A stretch of 64,000 nucleotides of DNA from Alphaproteobacteria bacterium (lineage in GTDB: Bacteria > Pseudomonadota > Alphaproteobacteria > Caulobacterales > Maricaulaceae). Position numbers and translations under genes: made by a program. Of the stretch, positions 4,351 to 13,277 are shown piece after piece. The stretch lies in NCBI GenBank assembly GCA_018222865.1, contig JAAEZM010000005.1, positions 93,524-157,523 on the forward strand. Direction: 5' to 3'. The notes under the pieces were generated by a model. It worked only from the letters and a program-made list of their open reading frames with translations. It was not told the DNA's origin and made no database searches. Numbering within the stretch: position 1 is the first letter of the stretch; every line of letters begins with the position of its first letter.

Positions 4351-5505
4351 TTATTCGGCAACGCTCACATTGTCGATCGCGTCGGAGGCATAGCATCCAA
4401 GGTGTTTGATCTCGCGGGTATGTTCTTCAAGCACCGTCATGGCGTCGATGATGATTTTGTCGTCGATATGCCCCTCCACATCCATGATGAACATCTCTTC
4501 CCATGGGTTTCCAGGGATGGGGCGGCTTTCGAGTTTTACGAGGTTGATGCCGCCATCGCGGAATCCCATCAGCGCATCAACAAGAGCGCCCGGCGTGTCG
4601 CGCGTGGTGAACATCATTGAAGTTTTGCACTCCACCTCGCGGGTCGGCTTTTTGAGCTCGCGCGCGATGACGATGAAACGCGTGATATTCTGCTCGTGAT
4701 CACCTACGCCGTGCTCCAGCACATCAAAGCCGAAAAGGCGCGCGGCATCCGCGCCGGCAATAACCCCGGCCGTGTCATCATCCTCCAGCAAGCGCTCAAG
4801 CGCACGGGTGGAACTGGAGGCCATATGCGATTCGATCTCCGGATGGCCGGCCAGCCAGCGCCGCGACTGGGCCAGAGCTTGCGGATGGCCGTAGACGCGT
4901 GTGACCCGGCCGAGGCCGCTTGACCGGCCAATGAGGCAATGATCCACGCGCAGGAGGAATTCTCCTGCAATCTTGGCACGCCCGGCCAGGAGGAGGTCAT
5001 AGACCTCATTGATCGATCCCGTGGTCGTGTTTTCGATCGGTATCACACCGTAATCCACCTCACCGCTTTCCACGGCTCGAAAGATCCCGATGAAATCACG
5101 CTTGGGTGCCGGCACTACACTGGCATTGCGACGTTCGAAAATGCGCTGGGCCGCTATATGGCTGTAACTGCCAGGCCCACCAAGATAGGCCACAGTCGCC
5201 TCGTTCAAATCTTCATCGCGCATACCGTCGAAACGGGTACGCTGGCGCTGGATCGACGCTTCAAAAAGACCGTGAAACAGCGCTTCAATCAATTCAGGCG
5301 GCACACCTTGAGATTTGCCCCGCTCAATAGCGCCTTTGAGCACGGATTGTTCCCGCTCGCGATCGCGAACCGGAAGGCCGGACTCAGCCTTGGCTTCAAG
5401 GATCTCTTCAACCAGATCACCGCGCTTGGCGATCAGGTCCACCAATTCCCGGTCGAGATCAGTGATCGCGGCCCGGATATCGTCTCTGTTTTTCGTGTCA
5501 CTCAT
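4351..5505 (-). CDS. pheA: Prephenate dehydratase with chorismate mutase domain (P-protein)
   Basis: Converts prephenate to phenylpyruvate in phenylalanine synthesis. The N-terminal 85 or so residues have the AroQ chorismate mutase helix pattern (DLDRELVDLIAKRGDL and a downstream RDREREQSV), suggesting the bifunctional form. The prephenate dehydratase domain follows (VAYLGGPGSYSHIAA; later IPIENTTTGSINEVYDLL). A C-terminal ACT domain contains LESRPIPGNPWEEMF, the allosteric phenylalanine-binding motif. The start at 5505 has GGACGAG upstream; an in-frame start 27 bases earlier lacks one. The 160 bases upstream contain an aromatic-rich short ORF, a possible antiterminator and a terminator whose T tract ends 25 bases before the start, so attenuation by phenylalanine supply is likely, in addition to feedback through the ACT domain. 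Confidence 0.94.
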   Translation of the reverse strand: MSDTKNRDDIRAAITDLDRELVDLIAKRGDLVEEILEAKAESGLPVRDREREQSVLKGAIERGKSQGVPPELIEALFHGLFEASIQRQRTRFDGMRDEDLNEATVAYLGGPGSYSHIAAQRIFERRNASVVPAPKRDFIGIFRAVESGEVDYGVIPIENTTTGSINEVYDLLLAGRAKIAGEFLLRVDHCLIGRSSGLGRVTRVYGHPQALAQSRRWLAGHPEIESHMASSSTRALERLLEDDDTAGVIAGADAARLFGFDVLEHGVGDHEQNITRFIVIARELKKPTREVECKTSMMFTTRDTPGALVDALMGFRDGGINLVKLESRPIPGNPWEEMFIMDVEGHIDDKIIIDAMTVLEEHTREIKHLGCYASDAIDNVSVAE

Positions 5506-5529
5506 CGATCTCGTCCAATTCCTGTCGCC

Positions 5530-5565
5530 CAAAACAAAAAGGACCTCCCGGAGGGGGAGGTCCTT
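5530..5565 (-). terminator. Intrinsic terminator in the pheA leader (attenuator)
   Basis: On the minus strand an 11-base perfect stem (AAGGACCTCCC on the + strand pairing with GGGAGGTCCTT, 5539-5549 with 5555-5565) and a 5-base loop is followed by TTTTTGTTTTG. It sits between the leader ORF and the pheA start, with no complete longer gene upstream that would need terminating. The 5' arm can alternatively pair with leader bases 5601-5610 (9 of 10 complementary), giving a mutually exclusive antiterminator. Confidence 0.85.
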
Positions 5566-5590
5566 GGAAACTTGCTGCTGCTCGCGCGCG

Positions 5591-5662
5591 TTACCTGGCC
5601 ACCGCCCCCTTTCGGGATGCGTCGGTAAAATAAAAGCCGAAGTAATAGGTCGCGGTCATCAT
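5591..5662 (-). CDS. Putative pheA leader peptide (23 aa)
   Basis: A 23-codon ORF starting with two ATGs whose residues 6-12 read YYFGFYF (5627-5647): six aromatic codons, three of them Phe. The stop lies 25 bases before the attenuator hairpin. The antiterminator strand AGGGGGCGGT (5601-5610) overlaps the last codons. A ribosome stalled in the aromatic run would leave it free, and one reaching the stop would cover it, which is the expected logic of ribosome-mediated attenuation. No Shine-Dalgarno site is visible. A TTGACG box at 5693-5698 is spaced so that transcription could begin at the ATG itself, giving a leaderless message. The frame is open further upstream and hydrophobic (without a good start codon), so a small membrane protein is the alternative reading. 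Confidence 0.6.
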   Translation of the reverse strand: MMTATYYFGFYFTDASRKGAVAR

Positions 5663-5669
5663 GCCGATG

Positions 5670-5698
5670 ACAGTGGCGATGGCGAACGCGCCCGTCAA
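5670..5698 (-). promoter_or_regulatory. Candidate promoter for the pheA leader
   Basis: TTGACG at 5693-5698 (minus strand) is a good alphaproteobacterial -35. After 17 bases comes CACTGT (5670-5675), a poor -10, then 7 bases to the leader-peptide ATG at 5662. The spacing fits a transcript beginning at or near that ATG. The weak -10 keeps this tentative. Confidence 0.35.
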
Positions 5699-5804: not shown

Positions 5805-6608
5805 TCATTTTCGTTGACGCCACTCCCGGCGATAAAGCGAAGGTTCGTGATGCTTGCGATAGGTCGCTTCGCCTTGCTCATGGAGCTCGCTTGATGAGGA
5901 TGCCCGCACCTCATGGCGCGGCAGCATTGCTTCGCGCGCAATTGGGATGACTTGCGCCAAAGGCGTTCCGGCAGGCAGACTATACTGGCCCGGCGGCCCG
6001 GTAAGCGCGAACGGCAGATTCACCTTGGCTGCAAACCGATCACAATCAACAAGCCCGGTAAAACAGGTGAAGGGCAATTCGAAGTGATTGAAGGGCGGCG
6101 TAAACAACACCGAATATCCTTCGGGCACGCGTATCCGCCAGGGGTTGATAAACTTGAGCGGCATCGTGCGTTCAAACGGAGGCGACGGGGCGCCAATTTG
6201 TCCGGGGTGGTGCTGCTCGACCAATTTGAACGGAGCCTCGGGTGCCCATCCAATCTGAATGTTCACACCATCCTCAGGGATGATCACCCTCACTTCAAAA
6301 GCAAGCGGGATTATCCAGCCGAGGGTGAAGGCATCGGTGACCGGCAGACAGGCTTTGACCGTAAGGCTCGCCAGCCCATGAGCATCTGGAACTCCCATAT
6401 TGCGGTCGAGATTACGGAACCATTCGGGAATGAAACGGGCTGCGGGCTCTGGCTTGGGCAAGAGATCGACGAGGTCCGGTTCGCACAAGAATGAGATGAG
6501 GTCATCGGGCTGCGGATCGACCGCCAAAGAAACGGGCGGCGAGCTCAGCTCACCGCCCTCTTCTTCATTTTCGCGCATCAGATGCTGCGGTGTCGTTTCA
6601 TCACTCAT
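5805..6608 (-). CDS. Protein of unknown function (possibly DUF6065-like)
   Basis: A 267-residue soluble protein with no signal peptide or membrane segment. The first 35 residues are acidic and low in structure. Then follow FLCEPDLVDLLPKPEPAA, a tract rich in Pro, Trp and aromatic residues (IPEWFRNLD, IGWAPEAPF), and a well-spaced series of short strands ending near TPLAQVIPI. The last 40 residues are charged. The pattern reminds me of the DUF6065 family, but I cannot confirm that. The start at 6608 is chosen because GGAG lies 8 bases before it. It sits between lon and the pheA leader, with 36 bases to lon, so co-transcription from lon is possible. Function not assigned. Confidence 0.65.
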   Translation of the reverse strand: MSDETTPQHLMRENEEEGGELSSPPVSLAVDPQPDDLISFLCEPDLVDLLPKPEPAARFIPEWFRNLDRNMGVPDAHGLASLTVKACLPVTDAFTLGWIIPLAFEVRVIIPEDGVNIQIGWAPEAPFKLVEQHHPGQIGAPSPPFERTMPLKFINPWRIRVPEGYSVLFTPPFNHFELPFTCFTGLVDCDRFAAKVNLPFALTGPPGQYSLPAGTPLAQVIPIAREAMLPRHEVRASSSSELHEQGEATYRKHHEPSLYRREWRQRK

Positions 6609-6644
6609 AGGCCGCTCCATGACGAGCGACCGATGAGAGAGCGC

Positions 6645-13192: not shown

Positions 13193-13277
13193 TGGTGCGG
13201 ATGAGAGGACTCGAACCTCCACGCCTCGCGGCACCAGAACCTAAATCTGGCGCGTCTACCAGTTTCGCCACATCCGC
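13193..13277 (-). tRNA. tRNA-Leu (anticodon UAG)
   Basis: On the minus strand the acceptor stem GCGGATG pairs with CATCCGC. The anticodon stem CCAGA/TCTGG holds loop TTTAGGT with anticodon TAG, a long variable arm (TGCCGCGAGGCG) marks a class II tRNA, and the T arm contains GGTTCGAGTCC. The discriminator is A, and CCA is encoded (13193-13195). It reads CUA and related leucine codons. Confidence 0.96.

Follow-up and report, generated by a model that had tools for sequence, protein, structure and literature searches.

Attenuation is usually pictured with a leader RNA that carries a 5' untranslated region (UTR) and a Shine-Dalgarno site. The closest described relative of the leader presented here is the pheL-pheA system of E. 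coli and its relatives, held in Rfam as Phe_leader (RF01859). Attenuators in proteobacteria were reportedly surveyed by Vitreschak et al. in 2004, and that work may list some of the leaders discussed below. For the alphaproteobacterial attenuator trpL (rnTrpL) of S. meliloti, the available portions of the reports describe an RNA whose first nucleotides are the AUG of the leader ORF, and a released RNA and peptide that act in trans (PMC7298713, PMC10117765). An attenuator with a leader peptide was also predicted earlier upstream of pheA in the gammaproteobacterium Shewanella, where it is listed as a Trp_leader match; no discussion of the start of its transcript was found in the accessible text of that paper (PMC2659441). 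The accessible portions of PMC2965389, PMC1173090 and PMC2864571 yielded nothing on a pheA leader of the type considered here, and no report of a leaderless or a mixed Phe/Tyr pheL was found in the literature searched, subscription journals being mostly outside its reach.

The leader attenuator described here occupies positions 5662-5531 (minus strand) of the window, by which we mean the whole 64,000-nucleotide stretch of DNA that was analysed, and lies upstream of pheA in a genome of the marine bacterium Maricaulis (Maricaulaceae, Alphaproteobacteria in the NCBI taxonomy). We consider it very probably a ribosome-mediated attenuator of transcription, of the same kind as pheL-pheA, that would respond to amino acid supply. 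An attenuator before pheA had been proposed in an original prediction, and it is now supported by the anatomy of the locus, by conservation in 19 of 19 Maricaulis genomes, by association with fused pheA genes and by model folding. The proposed mechanism is the one known from the Phe leader of E. coli, with which the Maricaulis leader shares a fused chorismate mutase-prephenate dehydratase gene, a short aromatic-rich ORF, terminator/antiterminator logic and a similar length. It differs in its alphaproteobacterial host, in carrying Tyr besides Phe codons and in having no predicted 5' UTR with a Shine-Dalgarno site. By eye, the stretch complementary to the terminator arm falls within the ORF here but just past the stop codon in E. 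coli. The Rfam scores differ as well: RF01859 gives the best sub-threshold Rfam match in the window, which runs full length from the leader ATG and scores 24.5 bits against a gathering score of 55, at which no leader was found in the window. That score was reached by none of the 20 Maricaulaceae loci scanned and by 10 of 20 gammaproteobacterial loci, E. coli included. Like trpL as described in the S. meliloti reports, the Maricaulis leader is predicted, from its promoter geometry, to start at its AUG; unlike trpL, it has Phe/Tyr rather than Trp codons and precedes a different gene. Attenuation of pheL-pheA and a leaderless trpL are known, while the leaderless, mixed Phe/Tyr pheL predicted here is apparently new.

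The leader and its conservation in Maricaulis

The pheA gene (4351-5505, minus strand, as are all features below) encodes a 384-residue fused chorismate mutase-prephenate dehydratase with an ACT domain, according to Pfam matches to CM_2, PDT and ACT. In NCBIfam the best match, PRK10622.1 (bifunctional), falls below its cut-off, and PRK11898.1 (prephenate dehydratase) lies above it. Upstream, a pheL-like ORF of 23 codons plus TAA (5662-5591, stop at 5593-5591) encodes MMTATYYFGFYFTDASRKGAVAR, as read directly from the sequence, and opens with a doublet ATG (5662-5660 and 5659-5657); it is predicted to be leaderless, with its AUG at or near +1. Direct reading places the control codons TAT TAC TTC GGC TTT TAT TTT (YYFGFYF) at 5647-5627. 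With an aromatic content of 5.2%, as in six genes of the window, a run in which six of seven codons are aromatic has a chance of about 1.4e-7 per position. In the consensus fold of the 19 genomes, segment 2 (5609-5600) is paired with segment 1, a protector strand at 5624-5614 that adds to the elements recognised originally. The antiterminator strand of segment 2, AGGGGGCGGT (5610-5601), is complementary to the terminator 5' arm: against ACCTCCCCCT (5561-5552), nine of ten positions pair, with a single C-U mismatch. Between leader ORF and pheA lies the intrinsic terminator hairpin formed by segments 3 and 4 (5565-5539; 11 bp stem, loop of 5), followed by a T-rich tail (5538-5531) seen both by direct reading and by terminator prediction. 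The 23-codon ORF with its aromatic run, the terminator in this position, the complementarity at nine of ten bases and the identity of pheA had all formed part of the original prediction, and all are borne out. The fold of the whole window leader, taken alone, is not unusual (z -0.72).

Nineteen Maricaulis genomes, the window's own included, were compared, and pheA is present in all of them. The run of codons for the product amino acid stands in an ORF 5' of the gene in 19/19, with codons 11-12 always Tyr-Phe (alignment A1; codon 12 is invariant TTT). In the same alignment segment 2, GGG-GCGGTG, is invariant save for one column and the terminator stem is mostly invariant. The leader ORF extends through or into segment 2 in every case: 16 leaders have 23 codons and end past it, and three 20-codon leaders (L005, L006 and L009) stop within it. 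In the structure combining segments 1:2 and 3:4, 99.7% of cells in the 19 genomes are paired, compared with 47-69% for slid versions. The eight-pair 1:2 helix has 99.3% of cells paired, four of its pairs never varying, and the 3:4 terminator has 100%, with one pair changed on both sides, from G-C to A-U, in six genomes. Since 12 of the 18 pairs of the combined structure are invariant, these are uninformative either way. Conservation in relatives of the aromatic codons and the pairing had been put forward originally as a check on the reading, and it holds across Maricaulis as well as at 24 of the 28 other fused-pheA loci in Maricaulaceae.

The surroundings of the locus offer some minor observations. 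Between lon and pheA an ORF at 5805-6620 (minus strand) shows a marginal match to DUF6065, at 25.5 bits with a cut-off of 26.6; by eye, 16 of the 18 other genomes of the genus have an apparent end of lon directly upstream. The window also holds two tRNA genes, at 2449-2521 and 13196-13277 (minus strand).

Pairing alternatives in model folding

In the mechanism we propose, transcription would start at or within 1-2 nt of the leader AUG, so that the leader peptide would be translated from a leaderless mRNA. A shortage of charged Phe-tRNA, and probably of charged Tyr-tRNA, would stall the ribosome in the Tyr/Phe run, where it would cover segment 1 (5624-5614) and free segment 2 (5610-5601) for the terminator 5' arm; with these two paired, RNA polymerase would continue into pheA. 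With both amino acids plentiful, a ribosome at the stop codon would cover segment 2, the terminator would form, and termination would release a short RNA of about 130 nt, which, like the peptide, might act in trans, as first suggested.

This behaviour was modelled by folding the transcript up to the end of the terminator 5' arm; the ribosome was assumed to mask all RNA as far as 12 nt beyond the first nucleotide of the codon on which it stalls. For Maricaulis, mean sequestering of the terminator 5' arm is 0.72 for a stall at the first aromatic codon and 0.77 at the last, versus 0.04 with the ribosome at the stop codon, in agreement with the stalling geometry first envisaged. The window leader gives 0.64, 0.66 and 0.03, respectively; in one Maricaulis leader (L007) sequestering stays at 0.46 with the ribosome at the stop codon. 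The corresponding means are 0.80, 0.60 and 0.20 in other Maricaulaceae and 0.59, 0.38 and 0.09 in gammaproteobacterial leaders. In the model, segment 2 accordingly behaves as an antiterminator that excludes the terminator, and which a stalled ribosome leaves exposed and one at the stop codon covers. Free RNA sequesters the arm at 0.34 in Maricaulis, 0.73 in other Maricaulaceae and 0.23 in the gammaproteobacterial leaders, exceeding 0.7 in 6/19 Maricaulis and 10/19 other leaders, and since the arm is already sequestered in so many free RNAs, read-through without translation may be high.

The amplitude of the switch was compared with that obtained when the stretch between was shuffled in two-base blocks, using 60 shuffles per leader. 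Four leaders (L095, L103, L104 and L108), whose hairpins were missed by the terminator finder, were excluded from the folding and shuffle tests, for which 55 of 59 leaders were used. The amplitude, taken as stall minus stop, is 0.72 in Maricaulis (0.14 for the shuffles), 0.57 in other Maricaulaceae (0.14) and 0.57 in gammaproteobacteria (0.12), and each of the 55 leaders exceeds its own shuffled mean. The proportion of shuffles at or above the real amplitude is 7% for the window leader and 43% for L007, and no more than 5% in 15 of 19 Maricaulis leaders. For the 2:3 duplex of single leaders, 10 or fewer of 200 shuffles were as good in 2/19 Maricaulis and 4/19 other leaders; this per-sequence test is mostly non-significant in these GC-rich leaders. 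When terminator arms were swapped among eight genera, 738 of 40320 permutations gave a summed duplex energy as low as the real one. This provides moderate covariation support, none of which comes from Maricaulis, g10 or g14: Maricaulis shows no preference for its own arm, and the other two do slightly worse with theirs.

Occurrence in Maricaulaceae and Gammaproteobacteria

At a threshold of 1e-30, pheA matches are present in 89 of 99 genomes of the family, and E-value and query range divide these into 38 fused (10 Maricaulis and 28 other) and 51 single-domain genes. Upstream regions were read at all 28 further fused loci and at 32 of the 51 single-domain loci. The leader is present at 24 of the 28, complete in 23 and, in L076, where the contig ends 130 nt upstream, visible as the end of the leader ORF and the terminator. 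It was not found at the other four fused loci (L078, L080, L081 and L085), the first three of which make up one clade of the PheA tree, a subclade of g8. At the single-domain loci no leader was found in 32/32 read; an ORF of at most 80 residues with at least four Phe/Tyr in eight, the filter applied here, occurs once, at -560, and four terminator-like sites come without such an ORF. In Maricaulaceae, then, the leader goes with fused pheA (24/28 versus 0/32 of the single-domain loci read). Searching the 99 family genomes with R1, an RNA model built from the 19 Maricaulis leaders, gave 16 matches with E no higher than 5.6e-5, all directly 5' of fused pheA. Weaker R1 matches were considered as further copies of the leader and rejected, seven of the 33 having been inspected and found to have the look of gene-end terminators, with no aromatic leader ORF. 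As a separate observation, the family holds two types of pheA, fused (mostly with leader) and single-domain, and genus g8 has both.

Beyond the family, fused pheA of this kind (E <=1e-60) was found in none of 386 other genomes of the class, and within the order it occurs in the window's family only (24/200 genomes at 1e-50). Across the phylum 93 of 397 genomes, the window's own included, match at 1e-50, and from this list the best 29 loci besides the window were taken, together with 20 lower ones picked by hand. A tree of 92 PheA rows groups all 42 from Maricaulaceae in a single clade (98/93), whose sister group is 38 gammaproteobacterial rows, E. coli among them. The outgroup, 12 rows of another fused type, sits on a long branch, and the program warns of long branches. 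The tree suggests a transfer of pheL with pheA between the classes, giving neither donor nor direction. Transfer out of the enteric gammaproteobacterial crown was considered and rejected, as the Maricaulaceae clade is sister to those 38 rows and not nested in them.

The gammaproteobacterial leaders show two main geometries. In families f172, f205 and f215 the leader ATG lies 35-37 nt from TTGAC or TTGCA at 17 of 20 loci, with good -10 elements (TAAAGT, TAGTTT and similar); two of the others (L145 and L165) have no visible leader, and the third (L151), which has an ATG at 37 nt and a single Phe codon, was not counted. In f181, to which E. coli belongs, and f185, TTGAC lies 56-59 nt before the ATG in ten rows measured, one of which (L167) has a second TTGAC at 29 nt; E. 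coli, L193 and L196 were assigned to this class by eye. The E. coli pheL is preceded by AAGGAA. A leader of neither type, with TTGAC 22 nt before the ATG, is present in L191 (f204), which was excluded from the geometry count, as L192 was from the presence count. No leader was seen in three f173 rows or at the 12 outgroup loci. On the PheA tree the two geometries (54 leaderless and 13 UTR rows) need two changes, and leader presence or absence needs six.

Predicted transcript start, possible amino acid inputs and possible origin

A -35-like TTGACG lies in the window at 5698-5693, 36 nt 5' of the first leader ATG. It is followed after 17 nt by a -10-like CACTGT (5675-5670), absent from the original prediction, from which the ATG is 7 nt away. 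The distance from TTGAC to the leader ATG is 35 or 36 nt in all 19 Maricaulis genomes, a count for which the ATGs were chosen by that spacing itself. If the nearest in-frame ATG is chosen instead, 13/19 keep the same spacing, the exceptions being the doublet ATG of the window, two leaders with an extra ATG inside segment 2, and L005, L006 and L009, which are frame-shifted there. Among the 23 complete leaders from other Maricaulaceae the distance is 35 (nine), 36 (six) or 37 nt (eight); a spacing of 35-37 nt was required for this count, yet 20 of the 23 had first been found without it, and each has such an ATG, sometimes not the one nearest to the run. By comparison, TTGAC occurs 35-37 nt upstream of just 9 of the 2231 ATGs in the window. 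At the place of the -10 element, by eye and at one of two adjacent offsets, CANNNT is seen in 19/19 Maricaulis and 22/23 other Maricaulaceae. CACTGT agrees with TATAAT, the E. coli consensus, only at positions 2 and 6, and a scan with that consensus found no promoter there. Tetramers resembling a Shine-Dalgarno site occur between -16 and -4 in 3/19 Maricaulis, 0/23 other Maricaulaceae and 2/17 gammaproteobacterial leaders. A promoter spacing appropriate for +1 at the AUG, and the absence of a Shine-Dalgarno site, had both been pointed out for the window; the latter holds and the former is strengthened by its recurrence in 42 Maricaulaceae leaders. Together, and with a weak -10 element, they point to leaderless initiation, and this promoter geometry makes a +1 at, or within 1-2 nt of, the leader AUG most likely. 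A leaderless Trp leader of the same geometry was sought in the 19 Maricaulis genomes, where scattered matches in 15 included no recurring leader among the matches listed.

Two alternatives bear on what the locus is and where its transcript starts. The hairpin might be the ordinary terminator of an upstream transcription unit, preceded by an aromatic ORF that arose by chance, with pheA unregulated. The gene-end appearance of the seven weaker R1 matches inspected, of 33, fits such an origin, but ORF, control codons and segment 2 are conserved in 19/19 Maricaulis, and no leader was found at 32/32 single-domain loci read, and we regard this explanation as highly improbable. It is also conceivable that the locus is an attenuator that is not leaderless, transcription starting further upstream and translation beginning after a 5' UTR that lacks a Shine-Dalgarno site. 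A weak -10-like element with no promoter passing the E. coli consensus scan would be explained in this way, as would the three Maricaulis leaders with Shine-Dalgarno-like tetramers, and a type with TTGAC 56-59 nt from the ATG does exist, as the ten measured rows of the E. coli and f185-like leaders illustrate. This is difficult to reconcile with a distance held at 35-37 nt in 42 Maricaulaceae leaders in which the spacer sequence diverges, with the same geometry, accompanied by good -10 elements such as TAAAGT, at 17/20 loci of three gammaproteobacterial families, or with 23/23 other Maricaulaceae leaders lacking Shine-Dalgarno-like tetramers; we consider a start further upstream unlikely.

The third question concerns the amino acids sensed. 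Maricaulis leaders contain 62 Phe and 42 Tyr codons (Tyr 42/104 of the aromatic codons) and those of other Maricaulaceae 72 and 46 (46/118), whereas the leaderless gammaproteobacterial leaders contain 81 and 1 (1/82). A Tyr share of about 40%, against almost none, suggests that the Maricaulaceae leaders may sense Phe and Tyr jointly, and strengthens an earlier suggestion to this effect. The attenuator could alternatively sense Phe alone, the Tyr codons being neutral and tyrosine limitation without effect. The dehydratase activity of PheA serves the Phe branch, the last control codon is Phe in 19/19 Maricaulis, and the window's genome has a second, separate small chorismate mutase (L002, G000:C13:97549-97782), so that PheA need not be the sole source of prephenate. 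On the other hand, besides the codon counts, codon 11 is Tyr in 19/19 Maricaulis, and in the models for this genus a stall at a Tyr codon is as effective in freeing segment 2 as one at a Phe codon, and we find sensing of Phe alone possible but rather doubtful. If one run does read two charged tRNAs, the leader would act as a simple sensor with two inputs, close to the prephenate branch point that the pathways share.

Returning to the predicted leaderless attenuator, its spacing of 35-37 nt in Maricaulaceae and at 17/20 gammaproteobacterial loci, but not in the E. coli-like type, indicates that the leaderless form is widespread and may be the older. A joint reading, which we offer tentatively and hold at a little short of evenly balanced, is that this pheL-pheA form, shared by Maricaulaceae and several gammaproteobacterial families, preceded the E. 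coli form with its 5' UTR and ribosome-binding site; that fused pheA and leader entered Maricaulaceae as a portable unit by inter-class transfer; and that the run was retuned there from Phe to mixed Phe/Tyr codons, so that one attenuator would read the charging of two tRNAs. A leaderless form spanning two classes would imply that ribosomes entering at the very 5' terminus keep close enough time with RNA polymerase for attenuation to work, and leaderless and UTR-led leaders of the same gene would form a natural pair for testing that timing. A minor observation on the gene itself is that in eight of the gammaproteobacterial loci (L143-L146, L151, L158, L160 and L193) the pheA open frame is 643-677 residues long, compared with 384 for the PheA of the window.
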